64,000 bases of DNA from Pseudomonas sp. 8O (GTDB taxonomy: Bacteria; Pseudomonadota; Gammaproteobacteria; Pseudomonadales; Pseudomonadaceae), in contig NZ_LR733265.1 in NCBI RefSeq assembly GCF_902506495.1, positions 560,098 through 624,097 of the forward strand. The letters are read 5' to 3'. Position 1 is the first letter of the stretch. Each line of letters opens with the position of its first letter. This document shows positions 37,542 through 46,424 of the stretch, piece after piece. The notes beneath the pieces are model-generated. The model saw only the letters and a program-made list of their open reading frames with translations, made no database searches and had not been told where the DNA came from. Position numbers and translations under genes: made by a program.

Positions 37542-38408
37542 TCAAAAACCGGCGAACTTCAGATAACTGCCGGTAATCACATCACCCCACAGCAGGGCGA
37601 TCCACCCGGCAATCGCCAGATAAGGGCCAAAGGGAATCGGCGTGCCGGAGTCGCTGCCACGCATGCGCAGCAGAATCACGCCGAGCACCGCCCCGACCAG
37701 CGACGACAGCAGAATGGTCAGCGGCAGAATCTGCCAGCCACCCCAGGCGCCGAGCATCGCCAGCAGCTTGAAATCACCGTAACCCATGCCTTCCTTGCCG
37801 GTGATCAGCTTGAACAGCCAGTACACCGACCACAGGCTCAGGTAACCGGCAATCGCTCCCCAGAGCGCGTCTTCCAGGCTGGTGAACAGCCCGAAGTAAT
37901 TGACGATCAAGCCCAGCCACAACAGTGGCAGCACCAGCACATCCGGCAGAATCTGGTGATCGGCATCGATCAGGCTCATCGCCAGCAGTCCCCAGGCCAG
38001 CACCAGCATGGCGCCTGCCTGCCAGGTAAACCCGAAATGCCAGGCGACGTAAGCGGAGAGCAAGCCGCAGGCCAGTTCGACGATGGGGTAACGCTTGCTG
38101 ATAGGAGTCTTGCAGTTCGAACACTTGCCGCGCAAAAACAGATAGCTGATGACCGGGATGTTCTCCCAGGGCTTTATCTCATGACCGCAATCAGGGCATG
38201 AAGAGTTGGGCAGAAGGAGATTGAAGGTTTCTGCTGGTGCGGTGGGCGGTAACTCCAGTACCTCCCGCGCCTGGCCTTGCCAGTCGCGCTGCAGCATCAG
38301 CGGTAGGCGATAAACCACGACATTGAGGAAGCTGCCGATCAGTAGGCCGAAAATCGCACAGATAAAAACAAAGGCCGACAGATTGTCGGCCATAAAGTCG
38401 AACGCCAT
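37542..38408 (-). CDS. pilD: Type IV prepilin peptidase / N-methyltransferase PilD
   Basis: 288 residues, integral membrane. The four-Cys motif is present (CPDC around 73 and CSNC around 98), the aspartyl-protease Asp in MSLIDADHQILPD, and GMGYGDFKLL. PilD cuts pilin leaders after the Gly and methylates the new N-terminal Phe. It would process both short pilins at 41565 and 42311 and type II secretion pseudopilins. Confidence 0.95.
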   Translation of the reverse strand: MAFDFMADNLSAFVFICAIFGLLIGSFLNVVVYRLPLMLQRDWQGQAREVLELPPTAPAETFNLLLPNSSCPDCGHEIKPWENIPVISYLFLRGKCSNCKTPISKRYPIVELACGLLSAYVAWHFGFTWQAGAMLVLAWGLLAMSLIDADHQILPDVLVLPLLWLGLIVNYFGLFTSLEDALWGAIAGYLSLWSVYWLFKLITGKEGMGYGDFKLLAMLGAWGGWQILPLTILLSSLVGAVLGVILLRMRGSDSGTPIPFGPYLAIAGWIALLWGDVITGSYLKFAGF

Positions 38409-38411
38409 GTT

Positions 38412-39632
38412 TTAGCCAACCACCGAACCGAGTTGGAAGATGGGGAGATACATGGCGATGATCAGGCCGCCGACCAGCACACCGAGCACGGACATGATCA
38501 GTGGCTCCATCAGCGTGGTGAGGTTATCCACCGCGTTGTCCACTTCTTCTTCATAGTAACCGGCGGTTTTGTCCAGCATTTCATCCAGAGAACCGGCCTC
38601 TTCACCGATGGCGGTCATCTGTACGGCCATGGTTGGAAAAATGCCGGTGTTGCGCATGGAGAAGTTGAGCTGCGAGCCCGATGAGACATCATTCTTGATG
38701 CGGTTGACCGCATTGCGAAACACCACGTTGCCGGTCGCGCCCGCGACAGAGTCCAGCGCGTCAACCAGTGGTACGCCAGCAGCAAACGTGGTTGCCAGGG
38801 TTCGAGCAAAGCGCGCGACTACAGCCTTGTACAGAATGGGGCCAACGATGGGGGCTTTGAGCAGCGCTCGGTCTAGCGAATCGCGGAACTTCTCCGAGCG
38901 TTTGTATGCCTGGCCGAAGCTGTAGAACGAAATAAATAACGCGAAAACTACCAGGAACCACCACTCCTGCAGCCATCTGGAAAGGTTGACCACCACCATC
39001 GTAAAGGCCGGCAACTGCGCACCGAAACCTTCGAATACGCTCTCGAACTGCGGTACGACCTTGATCAACAGAATCGCCGTGACGATCACGGCAACCACGA
39101 CTACCGCAATAGGGTAGGTCATGGCCTTCTTGATCTTGGCTTTCAACGCTTCGGTTTTTTCCTTGTAGGTGGCGACCCTGTCGAGCAAGGTTTCCAGGGC
39201 GCCGGACTGTTCGCCCGAGTCGACCAGGTTGCAGTACAGGTCATCGAAGTACATCGGCTTCTTGCGTAGCGAGGCGGCGAAGCTGTTGCCCGCAGCTACT
39301 TCCTGCTTGATCTCATCGATCAGCTTGCGCATGTTCGGGTTGTCGAAACCTTCGGCAATGATGTCGAACGACTGCAGCAGTGGCACACCAGCTTTCATCA
39401 TGGTGGCCATCTGGCGGGTGAACAAGGCGATATCCATCGGCTTGATCTTCTTGCCCGCGCTGAAAAGGGAAACTGCCTTTTTACGCACCTTGAGCGGGTT
39501 GATGCCCTGCTTGCGCAGTTGGGCCTTGACCAGTGCGGGAGATTGGCCGGAGATCTCTCCTTTGATCTTGCCGCCTTTTCTGTCGGTACCTTCCCAGGCG
39601 AATACGCTGGTTTTCAGTGCTTTTTCCGCCAT
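38412..39632 (-). CDS. pilC: Type IV pilus inner-membrane platform protein PilC
   Basis: 406 residues with two T2SSF domains (about 65-190 and 270-395) and three membrane helices. Motifs include ALFTRQMATMMKAGVPLLQS and FARTLATTFAAGVPLVDAL. PilC couples the PilB and PilT motors to pilin insertion. Three bases separate it from both neighbours. Confidence 0.95.
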   Translation of the reverse strand: MAEKALKTSVFAWEGTDRKGGKIKGEISGQSPALVKAQLRKQGINPLKVRKKAVSLFSAGKKIKPMDIALFTRQMATMMKAGVPLLQSFDIIAEGFDNPNMRKLIDEIKQEVAAGNSFAASLRKKPMYFDDLYCNLVDSGEQSGALETLLDRVATYKEKTEALKAKIKKAMTYPIAVVVVAVIVTAILLIKVVPQFESVFEGFGAQLPAFTMVVVNLSRWLQEWWFLVVFALFISFYSFGQAYKRSEKFRDSLDRALLKAPIVGPILYKAVVARFARTLATTFAAGVPLVDALDSVAGATGNVVFRNAVNRIKNDVSSGSQLNFSMRNTGIFPTMAVQMTAIGEEAGSLDEMLDKTAGYYEEEVDNAVDNLTTLMEPLIMSVLGVLVGGLIIAMYLPIFQLGSVVG

Positions 39633-39635
39633 GGA

Positions 39636-41336
39636 TTAGTCCTTGGTCACACGGTTGACTTCTTCCAGGCTGGTGATGCCCTGCATCGCCTTGAACAGCC
39701 CGGAAGTTCGGAGGTCATTGAAGCCGTCGGCTTTCGCCTGCGCGGCGATTTCGATGGAGTTGCCTTCTTCCATGATAATGCGTTGCAGGGAGGGCGTGAT
39801 TTTAACTACTTCATAAATCCCCACCCTTCCTTTATAGCCGCCTTTGCAATTGTCACAGCCATTGGGGGCGAACAGCTTGAAGCTGCCAATCTTGCTTTCA
39901 GGGAAGCCTTCTTTGAGCAAGGCCTCGCGCGGCAGTGTTACTTCCTTCTTGCAGCTGCAGAGTTTGCGCGCCAGGCGCTGGGCGATGATCAGGTTCACCG
40001 AGGTGGCGATGTTGAATGCCGGCACGCCCATGTTGCGCAGGCGGGTCAGGGTTTCCGCGGCGCTGTTGGTGTGCAGGGTGGACATCACCATATGCCCGGT
40101 CTGCGCGGCCTTGATGGCGATTTCGGCCGTTTCCAGGTCGCGAATCTCACCGACCATGATCACGTCCGGGTCCTGGCGCAGGAAGGCGCGCAGGGCCTGG
40201 GCGAAATCCATGCCGTGCTTCGGGTTGACGTTGACCTGGTTGATGCCTTCCAGGTTGATTTCCACCGGATCTTCCGCGGTGGAAATATTGATGTCCGTGG
40301 TGTTGAGGATATTCAGGCCGGTATAAAGCGATACCGTTTTGCCCGAGCCGGTTGGGCCGGTCACCAGAATCATGCCCTGCGGCTGCTTCAGAGCTGTCAT
40401 GTACAGCTCTTTCTGTTCTTCTTCATAGCCCAGCGCATCGATGCCCATCTGCGCGCTGGTGGGGTCGAGAATCCGCATCACGATCTTCTCGCCCCAGAGG
40501 GTGGGCAGGGTGTTGACGCGAAAGTCGATGGCCTTGGTCTTGGAGACCTTCATCTTGATCCGGCCATCCTGCGGCTTACGCCGCTCGGAGATATCCAGTT
40601 GCGCCATGACCTTGAGGCGGGCGGAAAGACGGCTGGCCAGCTGGATGGGCGGGCGGGCTACCTCATGCAGCATGCCGTCGGTACGAAAACGTACGCGGTA
40701 GGCTTTTTCGTAGGGCTCGAAGTGCAGGTCGGACGAGCCGCCCTTGATGGCGTCCAGCAGCATCTTGTTGATGAAACGCACCACTGGCGCATCGTCAGAA
40801 TCGTTACCGGCGCCAGCATCGTCCGCTTCGTCGCTGACGGCTTCGACATCAAGCCCGTCCAGATCGACGTCAGCCAGTTCTTCCATGCCGGTGTTGCCTG
40901 TATCGAAGAACTTGTCCAGTGCATCGCCCAGCTTGTCGTCTTCGACCAGTAGCGCTTCGGTGCTGATGCCGGTGCTGAACTGAACATCGGTAAGGGCCTG
41001 GTGATTGGTCGGGTCGGACAGGGCGATGAACAGCTTGTTGCCGCGACGGTAGAGCGGCAATACGCGGTGCTGGCGGCACAGTTTCTCGCTGACGAGATCC
41101 TTCGGCTGGTGCTCCTTGTCTACCGCGCTGAGGTCGAAGTAGGGCACGCCGAACTGTTCAGCGGCGATCTCGGCCACGGCACGGCTCGAGGCCAGCTTGT
41201 TCTGTACCAGATAGGACACCAGCGGAATCTTGTTGCGCAGTGCCTGGGCAAAGGCCTGGCTGGCGGTGCGTTCGTCGATAAGGCTGGCATTGACCAGTTG
41301 GCGGGCGAGGCCGGTGAGTTGGGCGGTATCGCTCAT
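39636..41336 (-). CDS. pilB: Type IV pilus extension ATPase PilB
   Basis: 566 residues. N-terminal MshEN-type domain, then the secretion ATPase: Walker A GPTGSGKT around 326, Asp box, Walker B VGEIRDLETAEIA, His box TLHTNSAAETL, and the tetracysteine zinc site (CSCKKE, CDNCKGGY). PilB powers pilus extension. Divergent from the short pilin gene, as in the classical pilA-pilB arrangement. Confidence 0.95.
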   Translation of the reverse strand: MSDTAQLTGLARQLVNASLIDERTASQAFAQALRNKIPLVSYLVQNKLASSRAVAEIAAEQFGVPYFDLSAVDKEHQPKDLVSEKLCRQHRVLPLYRRGNKLFIALSDPTNHQALTDVQFSTGISTEALLVEDDKLGDALDKFFDTGNTGMEELADVDLDGLDVEAVSDEADDAGAGNDSDDAPVVRFINKMLLDAIKGGSSDLHFEPYEKAYRVRFRTDGMLHEVARPPIQLASRLSARLKVMAQLDISERRKPQDGRIKMKVSKTKAIDFRVNTLPTLWGEKIVMRILDPTSAQMGIDALGYEEEQKELYMTALKQPQGMILVTGPTGSGKTVSLYTGLNILNTTDINISTAEDPVEINLEGINQVNVNPKHGMDFAQALRAFLRQDPDVIMVGEIRDLETAEIAIKAAQTGHMVMSTLHTNSAAETLTRLRNMGVPAFNIATSVNLIIAQRLARKLCSCKKEVTLPREALLKEGFPESKIGSFKLFAPNGCDNCKGGYKGRVGIYEVVKITPSLQRIIMEEGNSIEIAAQAKADGFNDLRTSGLFKAMQGITSLEEVNRVTKD

Positions 41337-41412
41337 GATGCAGGCGCTTGGTCCGAGGATTGATCCTGCTTATATAGCCCATATTACGTCTCGGCCCAAG
41401 CGTAGTTATCTG

Positions 41413-41433
41413 ATGTGACCAAATGCGTCACAT
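41413..41433. promoter_or_regulatory. Palindrome upstream of the short-pilin promoter
   Basis: ATGTGAC and GTCACAT arms with a seven-base spacer, about 90 bases upstream of the sigma-54 promoter and 77 bases from pilB. The position suits an activator such as PilR or a divergent regulator. The spacing is too long for a CRP/Vfr site. Confidence 0.45.
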
Positions 41434-41503
41434 GCTGCCGAATTCCTGTGAGGTGAATTGGGCCGGTATGCTGGATATCCTTGAAAAAGCGGTATTTCAG
41501 AGT

Positions 41504-41519
41504 TGGCACGCGACCTGCT
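41504..41519 (+). promoter_or_regulatory. Sigma-54 promoter of the short-pilin operon
   Basis: TGGCACGCGACCTGCT agrees with the RpoN consensus TGGCAC-N5-TTGCW at all but one position, with GG and GC ten bases apart. It lies 46 bases before the pilin ATG. Pseudomonas pilA is known to use RpoN with PilR, so this placement supports the short pilin being the functional replacement for pilA. Confidence 0.8.
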
Positions 41520-41564
41520 ATGTACTTCGCAGGTCGCTGACCTTAACCACATAGGAGTTAATCC

Positions 41565-41750
41565 ATGAAGTCTCTGAAGAAGCAAAAAGGTTTTACCCTG
41601 ATCGAGCTGATGATCGTCGTTGCGATCATCGGTATTCTGGCTGCCATCGCCATTCCGCAGTTCAACGAGTATCGCGCAAAGGCGAACGACTCCACTGCTC
41701 AGGCTGACACCAAGAATGGTATCAGCGTAATGACCGCTGCTCAGCGCTAA
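41565..41750 (+). CDS. Short type IVa pilin consisting of leader and N-terminal helix (PilA-N-like)
   Basis: 61 residues. Leader MKSLKKQKG, PilD cleavage after Gly, then [20 protein letters not shown] and [20 protein letters not shown]; the mature chain is 52 residues. E5 and P22 of the pilin helix are kept, as are F1, F24 and Y27. The entire C-terminal globular domain with the disulfide loop, normally about 90 residues, is absent. There is no sign of truncation by frameshift: the stop is clean, and a separate secreted gene follows 18 bases later. The plan matches Geobacter PilA-N. AGGAG precedes the ATG and a sigma-54 promoter lies upstream. It probably forms the fibre core, alone or with the product at 41769. 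Confidence 0.9.
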
Positions 41751-41768
41751 TTAATAGGGGAATTTGAT

Positions 41769-42233
41769 ATGAAGAACAATCTGCTGGGTTTGATTGCAGC
41801 TGTTGCATTCGGTTTTTCGGTTTCCACTGTTGCGGCTCCAACTGCAATCACTGGCGCCGTGATTACCGGCGGTACTGCTGGTGCGTGTACTGTTCTTGGC
41901 GAAGATGTGAAGGTTAACCTGTCGAAGGGTGTCAAGGGGTCTTATGACTGCTTCGAGGGAACTAACTCTATTAATATCGGCGCTTGCCATGAGGCCGGTA
42001 GTCGTAGCAATCAGCTGGTTTGTGCTCAGACTGGTATTAATGGTCAGGGTGCTGCCACATACAACAACGCTGCCTGTAACGACGATAACGTTGGTGACAC
42101 CATTACGCTTAGTGCTGGCCTGAGTTATCGTGGGTATCGAGCCAGCACTACCGGTGGCTCGGTTGCAACTCAGTCGCTCAGCGCAGCATGCACTGACGGC
42201 ACTGTGCAAGAATTGGTTAATCAGCAGCAATAA
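41769..42233 (+). CDS. Exported six-cysteine protein, candidate pilin head (PilA-C-like)
   Basis: 154 residues. Sec signal peptide MKNNLLGLIAAVAFGFSVST with probable cleavage in TVAAP. The mature part of about 130 residues is Gly/Ala/Thr/Asn-rich and has six Cys (GACTVLG, YDCFEG, IGACHEAG, LVCAQTG, AACNDD, SAACTDG), suiting three disulfides. No membrane anchor. AGGGGA precedes the ATG, 18 bases after the short pilin stop, and a terminator follows, so the two form a bicistronic unit. In Geobacter the split-off C-terminal part of the pilin is encoded in the same position. I infer that this protein is the separated head domain that binds or caps the short pilin. No clear sequence family is recognised. 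Confidence 0.7.
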   Translation: MKNNLLGLIAAVAFGFSVSTVAAPTAITGAVITGGTAGACTVLGEDVKVNLSKGVKGSYDCFEGTNSINIGACHEAGSRSNQLVCAQTGINGQGAATYNNAACNDDNVGDTITLSAGLSYRGYRASTTGGSVATQSLSAACTDGTVQELVNQQQ

Positions 42234-42248
42234 TTAGATGTGTTGGCT

Positions 42249-42280
42249 AGGGGAGGGTTCTGCTCTCCCCTTTCTTTTTT
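42249..42280 (+). terminator. Terminator after the split-pilin pair
   Basis: Hairpin AGGGGAG / CTCCCCT with the run TTCTTTTTT. It separates the pilin pair from the second short pilin and the ABC module. Confidence 0.8.
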
Positions 42281-42310
42281 GTGGTTTTCAATGTGCGGGT
42301 ATCATTTTTT

Positions 42311-42493
42311 ATGAAGAGCACCGCGGGCGGCTTTACTCTTATTGAATTGATGATTGTGGTTGCTATTATTGCTGTGCTTGCTGCGATTGCGATACCTCAA
42401 TTCAATGAGTATCGAGCTCGTAGTAATGATTCAAGTGCGCAGGCTGATGTGAGTAACGCAATTAAAGTTTTTTCGGTTGATATACGGCGTTGA
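42311..42493 (+). CDS. Second short type IVa pilin
   Basis: 60 residues: seven-residue leader MKSTAGG, then [20 protein letters not shown] and [20 protein letters not shown], ending VFSVDIRR. The mature 53 residues are nearly identical to the first short pilin up to residue 39 and then diverge. The DNA uses different, more AT-rich codons, so the duplication is not recent or came from elsewhere. No ribosome binding site is evident before the ATG, suggesting low translation and a minor-pilin role. It follows the terminator by about 30 bases and precedes the ABC permease gene by 38. Confidence 0.85.
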
Positions 42494-42531
42494 TATTTTG
42501 TTTCTGGTTTTTATTTGATTAAGCGTTTTCA

Positions 42532-43341
42532 ATGCAAATACTTTCTGAGCTGTGCGTGGGGGTTCGCTTATCTGTCAGGGCGGGCTTCTTATGGTTGGTT
42601 GGTATATCTGGTTTTGTATTATTTCTTATCGTCTGGATGGCCTCCGAGTTCAGTGGCCGCCAACCCGCAACCGTTGGGCTGGATGTTGGGTTGTCGGTGA
42701 TGCGCCTTATCCTGCCGCTGATCATGGTGCTGATGGTGCAGGAACTGCTCTCGCGCGAGTTCGACAGGCGTTATTTCCTTTCCTCCCTGACGTACCCGCG
42801 TGCCCGGCAGGGTTTGCTGCTGGGGCGCTTCGCGTCGGTTGTCGTCTTGATGTCGTGCGTGCTGATCGTGATGGCGGTTGCGCTCGGCCTGCTGGTTGCC
42901 TGGATCGGTGAAGACTACGCCCAGGCCACCGGCGTTTCGCTGGGCTGGCCTTATGTCGCGACCGTGGCGCTGATTGGGCTGGATCTGCTGGTGCTGACGG
43001 CGCTGGCTGTCTTCCTGGCCATGGTCGCCTCCACGCCCAGTTTCGTGCTGATCGGTACGCTGGGCTTCATGCTGATGGCGCGCTCCTTCGCGGCGATCAT
43101 CGAACTGCTGACGCGCGAATCCTGGGTCGTCGAGGGCGCGGAAAGCTACCGAGCCGGCGTCGGTGTGCTCGGCTACCTGCTGCCCGACCTGGGCTCCCTC
43201 GACATCCGCATGACGGCCCTTTATGGCCGCATGGAGTTCCTGCCCAGTGATCTGGGTGTGCTGGTGCTCAGCTGCCTGGCCTATGCCTTCGCCTTCCTCT
43301 GGTTGGCGGTGTGGGTATTGCAGCGCAAGCGTTTCGCCTGA
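42532..43341 (+). CDS. ABC-2 type transporter permease
   Basis: 269 residues with six predicted membrane helices (for example LWLVGISGFVLFLIVWMA and VVVLMSCVLIVMAVALGLLV). It has the ABC-2 permease plan, with a cytoplasmic loop containing EFDRRYFLSSLTYPRARQ. It would pair with the ATPase at 44180. The substrate is not evident; linkage to the split pilins suggests a surface or periplasmic component. GC content rises sharply after the pilin genes. Confidence 0.8.
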   Translation: MQILSELCVGVRLSVRAGFLWLVGISGFVLFLIVWMASEFSGRQPATVGLDVGLSVMRLILPLIMVLMVQELLSREFDRRYFLSSLTYPRARQGLLLGRFASVVVLMSCVLIVMAVALGLLVAWIGEDYAQATGVSLGWPYVATVALIGLDLLVLTALAVFLAMVASTPSFVLIGTLGFMLMARSFAAIIELLTRESWVVEGAESYRAGVGVLGYLLPDLGSLDIRMTALYGRMEFLPSDLGVLVLSCLAYAFAFLWLAVWVLQRKRFA

Positions 43342-43343
43342 TC

Positions 43344-44183
43344 ATGTTCAAGCGCTCCTTGAGTCTTCTGCTCGCTCTTGCCGGTTTCGCGGCATTCGTG
43401 GCTGCGGTGCTGTGGCGCAGTGGTCAGCCGATCGTCTTTCACAATGCTACGGTCAAGGACCGTGTTGTGGTGTCAGCCCCGGTCCTGACCGCGCTTTATG
43501 CGGGTGATCGCTTTCTCGCTGCGAACATGGAGGCCATACGCCTTTCTGCCACGGCTGTGGACCAGGGGCAGGCCGACATTCATTACCTGGTGCGGGCGCA
43601 GGTGGTCGTGGCCCAGCTCAATGCCTGCCACGAAGACAACTACTACCTTGCCAACGGTTTGCTGACCTGGGGTGGCGCGGTTGCCGAGGGTAACGAGGTA
43701 TTGCGCCGAGCCATGGATTGCCGTTTCTGGGACGGTATCCCGCCCTTCTTCTATGGGGTCAATCTGGCCTTTTTCGAGAAGGACAAGACGCAGGCGGTGC
43801 AGGCCCTGGAGTTGTCTGCAGAGCGCTGGCCGGAGAACGCTGTCACCTTGCGACGCATGGCAATCATGTTGCGAGCCGAGGCGCTGGCAGATGAGCGTTT
43901 GGCAGTCAATTACCTGATGCAGCAGCGTGATACGACTCATGACCCCAAACTGCGTGAGATGCTCGACAAACGGGTGATACGACTGCAGGGGTTGATCGAT
44001 CTGCGGGCTGCCCAGCGTCGCTACGAGGAGGCTCATGGCCCTTTGCAGAACTTTCAGCAGTTGGTCGACTCAGGGGAGATGGCTATGCTCCCGCAAGACC
44101 CGTTGAGACTGGGTTACGAGTTGCGTGACGGGCGTATCGAATTCAGAGAACTGAAAATTCCTGGTATGGAGAATCAGCAGTGA
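43344..44183 (+). CDS. Membrane-anchored periplasmic protein with TPR-like helices
   Basis: 279 residues from the ATG at 43344, three bases after the permease stop. One N-terminal membrane helix (LSLLLALAGFAAFVAAVLW), then a helical periplasmic part with TPR-like repeats (YYLANGLLTWGGAVAEGNEVL, AVQALELSAERWPENAVTLR, ALADERLAVNYL). C-terminal segment includes EEAHGPLQNFQQLVDSGEM. Three Cys. It lies between the permease and ATPase genes, overlapping the ATPase start, so it is probably the third subunit of the exporter. Family not recognised. Confidence 0.7.
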   Translation: MFKRSLSLLLALAGFAAFVAAVLWRSGQPIVFHNATVKDRVVVSAPVLTALYAGDRFLAANMEAIRLSATAVDQGQADIHYLVRAQVVVAQLNACHEDNYYLANGLLTWGGAVAEGNEVLRRAMDCRFWDGIPPFFYGVNLAFFEKDKTQAVQALELSAERWPENAVTLRRMAIMLRAEALADERLAVNYLMQQRDTTHDPKLREMLDKRVIRLQGLIDLRAAQRRYEEAHGPLQNFQQLVDSGEMAMLPQDPLRLGYELRDGRIEFRELKIPGMENQQ

Positions 44184-45091
44184 GTGCTGTGCTGGAGTTC
44201 AAGAACGTCAGCCAGACGTTTCGCGTCAAGGGCAAAGAGGTTCGGGCGCTGAAGGACATCAGCTTCGCGCTAACAGAGGGCGAAGTCTTCGGTTTTGTCG
44301 GGCCTAATGGCGCCGGCAAGTCCACGACGATCAAGGTGATGCTCGACATCATCAACGACTATCAGGGCCAGGTGAGCATCTATGGTGTGGATGCGCACAA
44401 TGCTTCGGCCCGTGCGCCCCTGGCCTACGTGCCCGAAACGCCGGCTCTGTACGAGCAGTTCACGCCGTTGGAAATCCTGCGCATGGGGCTTTCCATGTAC
44501 GGGATCAGGGGGGGCGATGCAGATGCCAGATGCATGCACTGGCTGGAGCGTTTCTCCGTCGATATGAATGCCAAGCGGCGGATTCGTGAGCTGTCCAAGG
44601 GTAATGTTCAGCGTGTGGCGCTGGCCCATGCGATGGTCGTGCAGCCCAAGTTGCTGGTGCTGGACGAGCCGCTTTCCGGTCTTGATCCAGTCGGGCGCAA
44701 GGATGTGGTGGAGATCCTCACCGAGTTCAAGCAACAGGGTGGGGCGATCTTCTTCACCTCACATGTGCTGCATGACGTGGAGCGTATTGCCGACCGCTTC
44801 GGCTTTATCAACAAGGGTGAGTTGCTGACCGTGCGCTCGCCGCGCGAACTGGCTGCCGAGCGTGCTGACGATATGCTGGTGCGTTATCACGCTGCGCAGC
44901 CGATAGGTGAGCCGCTACGTGTGCTGCGTGAGGGTGAGTTCGAGTGTGAAGTGCAGCAGGCCGAGCTGCCTGCCTTCATTGCACAGCTGAACCAGGTGGG
45001 CGGTCATCTTCTGACGGTCAAGCCAGCCGTTTCGTTGGAGACGGTGTTCTTCAATATCCTTGATGGCGCTGCTCGAAAGACGAGTGCCTGA
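44180..45091 (+). CDS. ABC transporter ATP-binding protein
   Basis: 303 residues starting at GTG that overlaps the previous stop. Walker A VGPNGAGKSTTIKVML around 38, Q-loop region YVPETPALYEQFTPLE, signature LSKGNVQRVALAHAM, Walker B LLVLDEPLSGLDPVGR and H-loop FFTSHVLHDV. It is of the CcmA/NatA class that drives ABC-2 exporters. Last gene of the module. Confidence 0.88.
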   Translation: MSAVLEFKNVSQTFRVKGKEVRALKDISFALTEGEVFGFVGPNGAGKSTTIKVMLDIINDYQGQVSIYGVDAHNASARAPLAYVPETPALYEQFTPLEILRMGLSMYGIRGGDADARCMHWLERFSVDMNAKRRIRELSKGNVQRVALAHAMVVQPKLLVLDEPLSGLDPVGRKDVVEILTEFKQQGGAIFFTSHVLHDVERIADRFGFINKGELLTVRSPRELAAERADDMLVRYHAAQPIGEPLRVLREGEFECEVQQAELPAFIAQLNQVGGHLLTVKPAVSLETVFFNILDGAARKTSA

Positions 45092-45172: not shown

Positions 45173-46021
45173 TTACAACGCCAATCTCATCGACAAATCC
45201 ACCGCCTTCACATCCTTGGTCAGTGTCCCCAGCGAGATGTAGTCCACGCCCGTCTCGGCGACCGTGCGCAAGGTGCTGTCATTGATTCCGCCCGAAGCTT
45301 CGAGCTTGGCGCGGCCGGCGGTGAGTCTTACGGCTTCGCGCATATCCTCGAGTGACAGTTCGTCGAGCATGACGATATCGGCGCCCGCTTCCAGCGCTTC
45401 GCGCAGTTCTTCCAGGCTTTCCACTTCGACTTCCACCGGCTTGCCCGGGGCGATCTGGTGGGCGGCGTTGATGGCCTGGGAGATGCCGCCGCAGGCGGCG
45501 ATGTGGTTTTCCTTGATCAGGAAAGCGTCGTACAAACCGATGCGGTGGTTATGGCAGCCGCCGCAGGTCACGGCGTACTTCTGCGCCAGACGCAGGCCCG
45601 GCAGGGTTTTGCGGGTATCCAGCAGTTTTACCTGGGTGCCTCCAACCAGGTCGGCATAGTGACGGCAGCGGGTGGCGACGGCAGACAGGGTCTGCAGGAA
45701 GTTCAGGGCGCTGCGCTCGCCACTGAGCAGGGCACGGGCCGGGCCTTCGAGGCGGAACAGGGTCTGGTCGGCGCTGACCTTGTCGCCATCCTGCACCTGC
45801 CAATGCACTGCGACGCGCGGGTCGAGCTGGCGAAATACCGCATCGACCCACGCTGTGCCGCAAATTACCGCCTCTTCACGCGTGATCACGCGGGCGCTGG
45901 CCAGGCGCTCGGCCGGAATCAGCTGAGCCGTGATGTCGCCGCTGCCAATGTCTTCGGCCAGGGCGCGGCGGACGTTGGCTTCGATTTCGCTGCTGAGGTC
46001 GGCGAGTGTCAGGTTGGGCAT
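45173..46021 (-). CDS. nadC: Nicotinate-nucleotide pyrophosphorylase (carboxylating)
   Basis: 282 residues from the ATG at 46021. The upstream in-frame extension is not part of the family. Quinolinate phosphoribosyltransferase motifs: [50 protein letters not shown] and LEASGGIN. It converts quinolinate and PRPP to nicotinate mononucleotide in NAD synthesis. It is the conserved flank of the pilA locus. Confidence 0.95.
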
Positions 46022-46424
46022 GATCGGCTCCGGTGTAGGCGAGCGGCGATTATAGAGGCAGGCAGGGGGAGGGCAATGGGTTGGAGTGTGCTCGGAACCA
46101 CCGCGGGGCAAAAGGATTCGCTGCGGGTCGCAGCGCCTGAAAAGGCGGGCGCGGCCCGACCAGCGGGGCAGCGTCACAGGGCTGTCAGCGTTACGCTGTA
46201 AAGATACGGCTGTCGTGTATGGGCTACCGTCTGGAGGTGGCGTGTGGCTATCTGTGATCTGGGTCATGTCTGTAGGAAAAATTGGCTTGGTATGGCGCGC
46301 GGCCTCCCTATAATGGCTTTACTTTTTTCATTATTGACGCCAGGCCTTTGACGTTACGGACGACGCTCGGTTGACGCTGTGCAGACCAGGAAGCTCGAGT
46401 TCGGGCAGTCTGCGGGAGACTAGA
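46022..46424 (+). promoter_or_regulatory. Divergent gap nadC / DUF1631 with a sigma-70 promoter
   Basis: About 400 bases without a gene. TTGGTA (46287-46292), a 16-base spacer and TATAAT (46309-46314) form a good promoter 110 bases before the DUF1631 start. An open frame across part of the gap is only an extension of nadC and lacks similarity. Confidence 0.6.

Follow-up and report, generated by a model that had tools for sequence, protein, structure and literature searches.

A Geobacter-like split pilin locus with a linked ABC transporter set in a clade of Pseudomonas

In Geobacter sulfurreducens the major type IV pilin consists of two proteins, the 61-amino-acid (aa) PilA-N and the 104-aa PilA-C (PMC11046646), and the Geobacter structures in the PDB (9egp, 7tgg, 6vk9) represent this pairing of a helix-only prepilin of about 60 aa with an adjoining exported, beta-rich partner. 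The pilin-accessory cassettes of Pseudomonas aeruginosa (groups I-V) link an exchangeable pilin to accessory genes, with a terminator lying between the two, and in Pseudomonas pilin cassettes these terminators have been proposed to damp the accessory genes (PMC11841053). In Myxococcus xanthus, PilG, PilH and PilI are encoded by ATP-binding cassette (ABC) genes linked to the genes of a full-length pilin; deletions of pilG, pilH and pilI are listed among the mutants without pili, and the passage of pilin across the inner membrane is cited as requiring all three proteins (PMC3724824). Geobacter and its relatives have their type IVa genes arranged as in Myxococcus, with exceptions, and pilG, pilH and pilI are counted in the cluster (PMC6060248). 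Shu et al. 2016 (PMC5174107) also included Pseudomonas in their list of taxa in which pilins are truncated; their passages on the partner protein describe it for Geobacter only, and their text lacks the term "ABC transporter". Here we analyze a pilin locus in a stretch of 64,000 nucleotides of Pseudomonas sp. 8O (GCF_902506495.1, contig NZ_LR733265.1, positions 560,098-624,097 of the forward strand), hereafter the window, in whose numbering all coordinates below are given unless a locus or contig is named.

This locus is a Geobacter-like split pilin in a new setting and with new features, and we consider it highly likely to be the major-pilin locus of the type IVa pilus of the cell, in a split form with Geobacter-like two-chain subunits. 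With the Geobacter pair it shares the short helix-only prepilin and the adjoining exported-looking partner, which has the same fold by model; it differs in having mostly six-Cys partners (hereafter heads), in adjoining a Pseudomonas pilB, in a linked set of permease, tetratricopeptide repeat (TPR) protein and ATPase, and, in some loci, in a second short pilin. Compared with the P. aeruginosa cassettes, two proteins stand in place of the PF00114 pilin, and the accessory genes are the ABC set rather than TfpO/W/X/Y/Z. The likeness to the Myxococcus PilGHI system is one of gene content and linkage alone, in that an ABC ATPase, a permease and a third protein are linked to pilin genes. A search of the open-licence literature turned up no paper describing the paired head, the ABC set or an exchange of cassettes in Pseudomonas.

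The short pilin and its exported partner

The first-pass annotation, which was made from the sequence alone, had proposed that a split short-pilin locus of Geobacter type replaces pilA here, and all of the parts that it named were recovered in place when the open reading frames (ORFs) and translations were rechecked. The short prepilin gene pilA1 (41565..41750, + strand) encodes 61 aa with an N_methyl match (E 4.5e-12), and its top PDB matches by sequence are the Geobacter geopilin domain 1 (PilA-N) chains, at E 7.7e-17 and 1e-16. The pilin half is hence a helix-only prepilin of PilA-N length and ancestry, as had been proposed. Its mature form contains three aromatic residues (F1, F24 and Y27), and across 69 loci the mature short pilins contain 3 to 5 F/Y/W/H residues, with a mean of 3.4.

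Eighteen bases downstream, the head gene (41769..42233, + strand) encodes a 154-aa, six-Cys, exported-looking and PilA-C-like protein with a signal-like sequence at 41769-41837 and a mature part from 41838, both the signal peptide and its cleavage site having been assigned by eye. When 48 heads of the six-Cys type (six Cys in 36, seven in 8, eight in 2 and four in 2) are combined into a profile, the Geobacter PilA-C chain 9egp_B (Geopilin domain 2) ranks first of 177,635 PDB sequences, at a marginal E of 0.0029, and a non-overlapping set of 23 heads with two to five Cys again ranks it first, at E 0.041; both of these profiles include the signal peptide. A third profile of 47 mature heads lacking the signal, drawn from both sets, likewise places 9egp_B at the top of the PDB, at E 0.046. 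Further, the AlphaFold model of the head (predicted local distance difference test score (pLDDT) 90.0, predicted template modelling score (pTM) 0.69) is beta-rich, and its best VIA-align match is the same chain from the Geobacter metallireducens type IV pilus, at a Z of 6.1, which is under the level that the tool calls safe (root-mean-square deviation 2.8, 74/92 residues), with the runner-up at Z 3.3. The proposal that the head half is also of Geobacter type is thus upheld by these three individually weak profile ranks and the predicted fold, which together point to homology with PilA-C.

The two head types are related to each other by hhalign (probability 96.9, over an aligned part that includes the signal peptide), and an alignment of the mature parts displays a pattern around LSxNV and GGSV common to both. 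Among the 48 heads of the six-Cys type four cysteines are invariant (48/48) and a fifth is present in 46, and in the 23 module loci of the genus the head has six Cys in 18, seven in one and two in four. Pfam searches of the heads and the TPR protein returned no family beyond single weak matches and TPR models in 2/19. A cytochrome-like head can be ruled out, as CXXCH occurs in none of 69 heads. As a separate observation, a head-like match was found in genome G032 (locus L063) at E 3e-4.

Distribution of the module and the missing PF00114 pilin

When the TPR protein is used as the marker of the module in genome counts, 23 of the 298 genus genomes, counting that of the window, contain the module and 249 a PF00114 pilin; the two never coincide (overlap 0; hypergeometric P 4e-21, with genomes treated as independent and relatedness ignored), and 26 genomes have neither. 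The first-pass annotation had pointed to related genomes as the place to look for the same block, and each of the 22 other TPR-positive genomes of the genus indeed displays the same order: pilB, a prepilin of 60-61 aa, an exported-looking ORF directly after it, the permease, the TPR protein and the ATPase. Both the separate exported partner adjoining the short pilin and the ABC set are hence found in 23/23 genus loci. At class level the TPR protein was detected in 9/369 genomes, again including the window's. A pattern-based scan of 84,980 species genomes, with several genomes shared with the genus set, yielded 74 named loci with hosts in Pseudomonas, Stutzerimonas, Thauera, Pseudothauera, Thiohalophilus, Deefgea, Mariprofundus, Accumulibacter, Comamonadaceae and others. 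In 69 of these 74 a prepilin of 56-65 aa is followed by an ORF that looks exported, as judged by eye and by hydrophobicity pattern, while in five (L154, L173, L174, L176 and L177, of which L173 and L174 are short contigs) no prepilin was found by motif. As the order recurs in 22/22 other genus genomes and the pair of short prepilin and exported-looking ORF in 69/74 named loci, the layout is not a product of chance. Thauera sp. Sel9 has two TPR-marked loci (L137 and L139), with TPR proteins 98% identical and heads 41% identical.

The second short pilin gene, pilA2 (42311..42493, + strand, ATG at 42311), encodes 60 aa with an N_methyl match at E 2e-8, and such a second pilin is present in 7/23 genus loci, the window's included. 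Versions with an N-terminal extension occur in L116:4791-5024 and L118:4872-5114, where they are 77-80 aa as read, their start codons being uncertain.

The window's genome (5.2 Mb, 6 contigs, completeness rated 100%) has no match to the PF00114 major pilin, and so falls outside the Pseudomonas group of full-length PF00114 pilins. It contains 14 N_methyl matches at E <= 1, of which 10 are above the Pfam cut-off, both short pilins among them. The prepilins besides these two belong to a GspG-K-like region and to a cluster of minor pilins in which pilY1 and a PilE-like protein are also found; the naming of the former, a type II secretion system (T2SS)-like region, is our presumption from gene order. 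The minor pilin cluster is recognized by NCBIfam as containing PilV and by Pfam as containing PilW, PilX_N, PilY1 and two further minor pilins, one GspH-type (FimU-like) and one ComP-type. A sigma-54 response regulator, PilR-like in position, adjoins these genes. The earlier claim that there is no normal pilA therefore stands: no other prepilin above the cut-off resembles a major pilin, and no full-length major pilin, which could have undone the proposal, is recognized elsewhere in the genome, the remaining prepilins being minor or T2SS-like. PilQ is present above cut-off, as are four PilT-family ATPases above the curated cut-off (G000:C6:1461809-1463984, C5:1214431, C4:103754). Separately, the PilE-like minor pilin by pilY1 (L064:6630-7088, C6, minus strand) matches the ComP DNA-uptake-sequence receptor model PF16732 at E 2.1e-18, on account of which the organism may be transformable.

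Two putative control elements accompany the split genes. A sigma-54-like -24/-12 element, TGGCAC-N5-CTGC (41504..41519, + strand), carries 9/10 consensus bases and begins 61 bases 5' of pilA1, and sites scoring >= 9 within 200 base pairs are found in 51/70 loci as against 7/1400 base shuffles. Between the head gene and pilA2 lies a terminator-like hairpin with a 10-pair stem and a T tail (42249..42271, + strand); such sites occur <=110 bases after the head in 29/70 loci versus 20/1400 base shuffles, and a terminator scan of the window region gives 4 sites in all where shuffles give 4.1.

Variation of tail and head

Variation is distributed very unevenly over the module. In 52 loci whose heads have six or more Cys (L149 having been dropped for runs of N, and L044 and L045 being near copies), mean pairwise identity is 95% in residues 1-28 of the mature pilin, 58% in the pilin tail, 36% in the head, 60% in the TPR protein and 58% in the permease. 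The same pattern is visible between the window and G099, its nearest relative among the compared loci: at the DNA level pilB is 98.4% identical, the TPR and ATPase genes 97.6% and the permease gene 91.2%, as against 58.3% for the head and 60.1% for pilA2, and at third codon positions pilA1 is 82.3% identical versus 93.6-95.6% in the pilB, pilC, TPR and ATPase genes. Further, heads often find their best match in distant loci. The nearest head to that of L120, a Pseudomonas metagenome-assembled genome, is in the Thauera locus L137 (58%, with the TPR proteins at 53%), whereas in the locus with the closest TPR protein (93%) the head is only 41% identical; the nearest head to that of L123 (Stutzerimonas) is in the Pseudothauera locus L144 (64%, TPR 49%). 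Thauera being placed in the Betaproteobacteria by the NCBI taxonomy, some heads are thus closest to those of another class. The occurrence of very different heads on the same set suggests that the outer surface of the pilus is exchangeable while the core stays constant.

Pilin tail and head vary together: the partial Mantel correlation is 0.65 when the TPR protein is allowed for (0/2000 permutations) and 0.64 when the permease and the third positions of the pilin core are allowed for (0/2000), whereas the third positions of the pilin core predict the head weakly (0.10, 49/2000). This co-variation fits a contact between the two parts, or recombination that exchanged the tail together with the head and broke within the conserved core. 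On our proposal the tail and head could be exchanged as a cassette because the join between the chains would be non-covalent, and they would be swapped in this way with the assembly core fixed. The fuller version of this idea, which strikes us as about an even call, is a head-exchange design in which an invariant membrane helix, a co-adapted tail and a hypervariable, disulfide-rich head would move as a cassette between species and even classes (Pseudomonas and relatives of Thauera), with the conserved core and the ABC genes as flanking homology and one ABC set serving all heads, such that the surface is swapped and the assembly core left untouched.

Interpretation, surroundings and significance of the locus

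Several observations weigh against reading the locus as a Geobacter-like two-chain major pilin. Besides the marginal E-values of the head profiles, the presence of the signal peptide in two of them and the low Z score, the window's head as a single query has no PDB match at E <= 10, and Foldseek with the head model gives no PDB match at E <= 0.001 and does not have 9egp_B among the 50 rows listed, so that the structural match is not significant by Foldseek alone. The sixth Cys aligns in only 26/48 heads. Heads with two Cys and ABC sets of only 34-45% identity characterize the four most divergent loci of the genus, and the sigma-54-like site is missing from most Pseudomonas loci with heads of that kind; neither the six cysteines nor the promoter is hence essential to the module. 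Moreover, tail and head adjoin, and joint transfer by recombination could therefore yield their co-variation.

Among other explanations, one might hold that the short pilin alone forms a thin helix-only fibre, in line with the e-pilus idea, and that the exported protein is a chaperone or an unrelated secreted factor. The short pilin is of the PilA-N type, the term "short pilin chaperone" is in use in parts of the literature, and the e-pilus view for Geobacter is argued in PMC9207759; however, we consider this unlikely for the present locus, as the head model shares the fold of PilA-C, a protein that the solved 7-8 nm pilus of Geobacter contains (PMC12954529). Additionally, neither the 3 to 5 F/Y/W/H residues of the mature short pilins nor the heads, which are devoid of CXXCH, point to conduction. 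A very unlikely explanation, in our estimate, is that the locus specifies a minor or secretory pseudopilus, with real pili being lost or using another pilin such as the 153-aa PilE-like protein. This would draw on the PilE-like pilin, the other minor pilins and the T2SS-pseudopilin-like set of the genome, but the strict exclusion between the module and PF00114 pilins in 298 genomes, the position by pilB, the sigma-54-like promoter and the retention of PilB, PilC, PilT and PilQ all speak against it, and the PilE-like protein is itself a ComP-type minor pilin by pilY1. Finally, the head of the window starts in the frame of pilA1, 18 bases past its stop, as might be expected if a normal pilA had been broken by a single TAA. 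However, the head begins with a start and a signal-like sequence of its own, and 23/23 genus loci and 69/74 named loci retain the split while spacing (0 to about 50 bases) and frame vary among them, which in practice rules out a broken full-length pilA and leaves this the most improbable explanation of all.

Under the preferred reading of a split major pilin, PilD would process the 61-aa prepilin, and PilB and PilC would polymerise the mature pilin into the helical core. The head would be exported separately, fold in the periplasm as a disulfide-held beta-rich domain and bind the exposed C-terminal tail of the short pilin, giving a fibre of two-chain subunits as in Geobacter PilA-N/PilA-C. Transcription would proceed from the sigma-54 promoter, and the terminator after the head would reduce how strongly pilA2 and the ABC set are expressed, as is the case in the pilin-accessory cassettes of Pseudomonas.

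The ABC set comprises an ABC-2 type permease (42532..43341, + strand; ABC2_membrane_4 at E 5.5e-4, under the curated cut-off), the TPR protein (43344..44183, + strand, from an ATG, with an alternative GTG at 43311) and an ABC ATPase (44180..45091, + strand; ABC_tran at E 4.8e-28). By alignment and AlphaFold model (pLDDT 79.2, with TPR folds as top structural matches) the TPR protein has an N-terminal helix resembling a membrane anchor, its probable function, and the alignment displays an invariant HEDNY motif. The end of this protein (43944-44183) combines a long helix, a conserved P-x-DPL-x-x-GY motif and a predicted two-strand hairpin, which we take to be reminiscent of the end of GspG-type pseudopilins. 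By analogy with PilG, PilH and PilI of Myxococcus, the most likely role of the set is to assist the release of pilin or head from the inner membrane, or their loading, a role to which we would assign roughly equal weight for and against.

With respect to the surroundings, pilBCD run leftward from 41336, namely pilB (39636..41336, - strand; T2SSE and MshEN), pilC (38412..39632, - strand; T2SSF) and the prepilin peptidase gene pilD (37542..38408, - strand; Peptidase_A24), while the module runs rightward over 41565-45091. Past the ABC set lies an ORF (45173..46267, - strand) which we take to be nadC, following the first-pass annotation, and for which tblastn gave a match past the ABC set in 19/22 other genus loci, directly or after a gap. 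The first-pass annotation had placed the module in the conserved pilB/nadC slot of pilA. In the 30 best PF00114 loci the pilin adjoins pilB in 26 and pilC in 4, and the 20 chosen PilA-type regions divide evenly into 10 with the pilin by pilB and 10 with it by a pilC; 2 of the 20 stretches contain nadC. The slot is thus shared with the pilB-flanked PilA for only part of the genus, as half of the chosen regions are pilC-adjoining and nadC is in 2/20. Those ten regions (L180, L181, L183, L184, L186-L189, L191 and L198) have a divergent pilC, 41-45% identical, and no pilB match in the stretch.

The further claim that the whole pilin system was exchanged as a module holds to the extent that pilA is replaced and that module and PF00114 are mutually exclusive; a recent import into the window's lineage is unsupported. 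In an IleS tree of 30 picked genomes, with small genomes preferred (14 of the 23 with the module and 16 of the 249 with PF00114), a single branch sets apart the 14 module genomes, together with two PilA-type genomes that fall among them, and three changes between module and PilA are forced. The module thus looks old in this clade, with PilA-type genomes nested in it, which is why a recent import lacks support. One PilA-type genome, G198 (locus L192), has an IleS 98% identical to that of the window, yet has a 157-aa PF00114 pilin adjoining pilB; the identity of its PilB to that of the window is 75% in residues 1-230 and 89% in the remainder, which would fit the arrival of a PilA cassette together with a portion of pilB and makes this PilB look recombinant near residue 230. 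The window's PilB is 74-81% identical to the full-length PilB of nine PilA-type genomes and 64% identical to the PilB near the Thiohalophilus locus. A PilB tree of 42 rows (in which G099 is a 112-aa fragment, G198 is represented by residues 229-566 only and one Stutzerimonas row is long) needs three label changes, one of them forced by strong branches; as its rows come from Pseudomonas and Stutzerimonas only, it is silent on the origin of pilB.

By these results, pili built from two chains appear to occur in one Pseudomonas clade and in several Stutzerimonas, natural transformation being studied in the latter genus. The dispute over whether the Geobacter short pilin makes fibres by itself or together with PilA-C could be put to the test in aerobic, easily handled pseudomonads. 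Further, the hypervariability of the head hints at selective pressure by phages that bind pili or by surfaces, and through the linked ABC set an accessory transporter of pili that is poorly understood becomes accessible to study.

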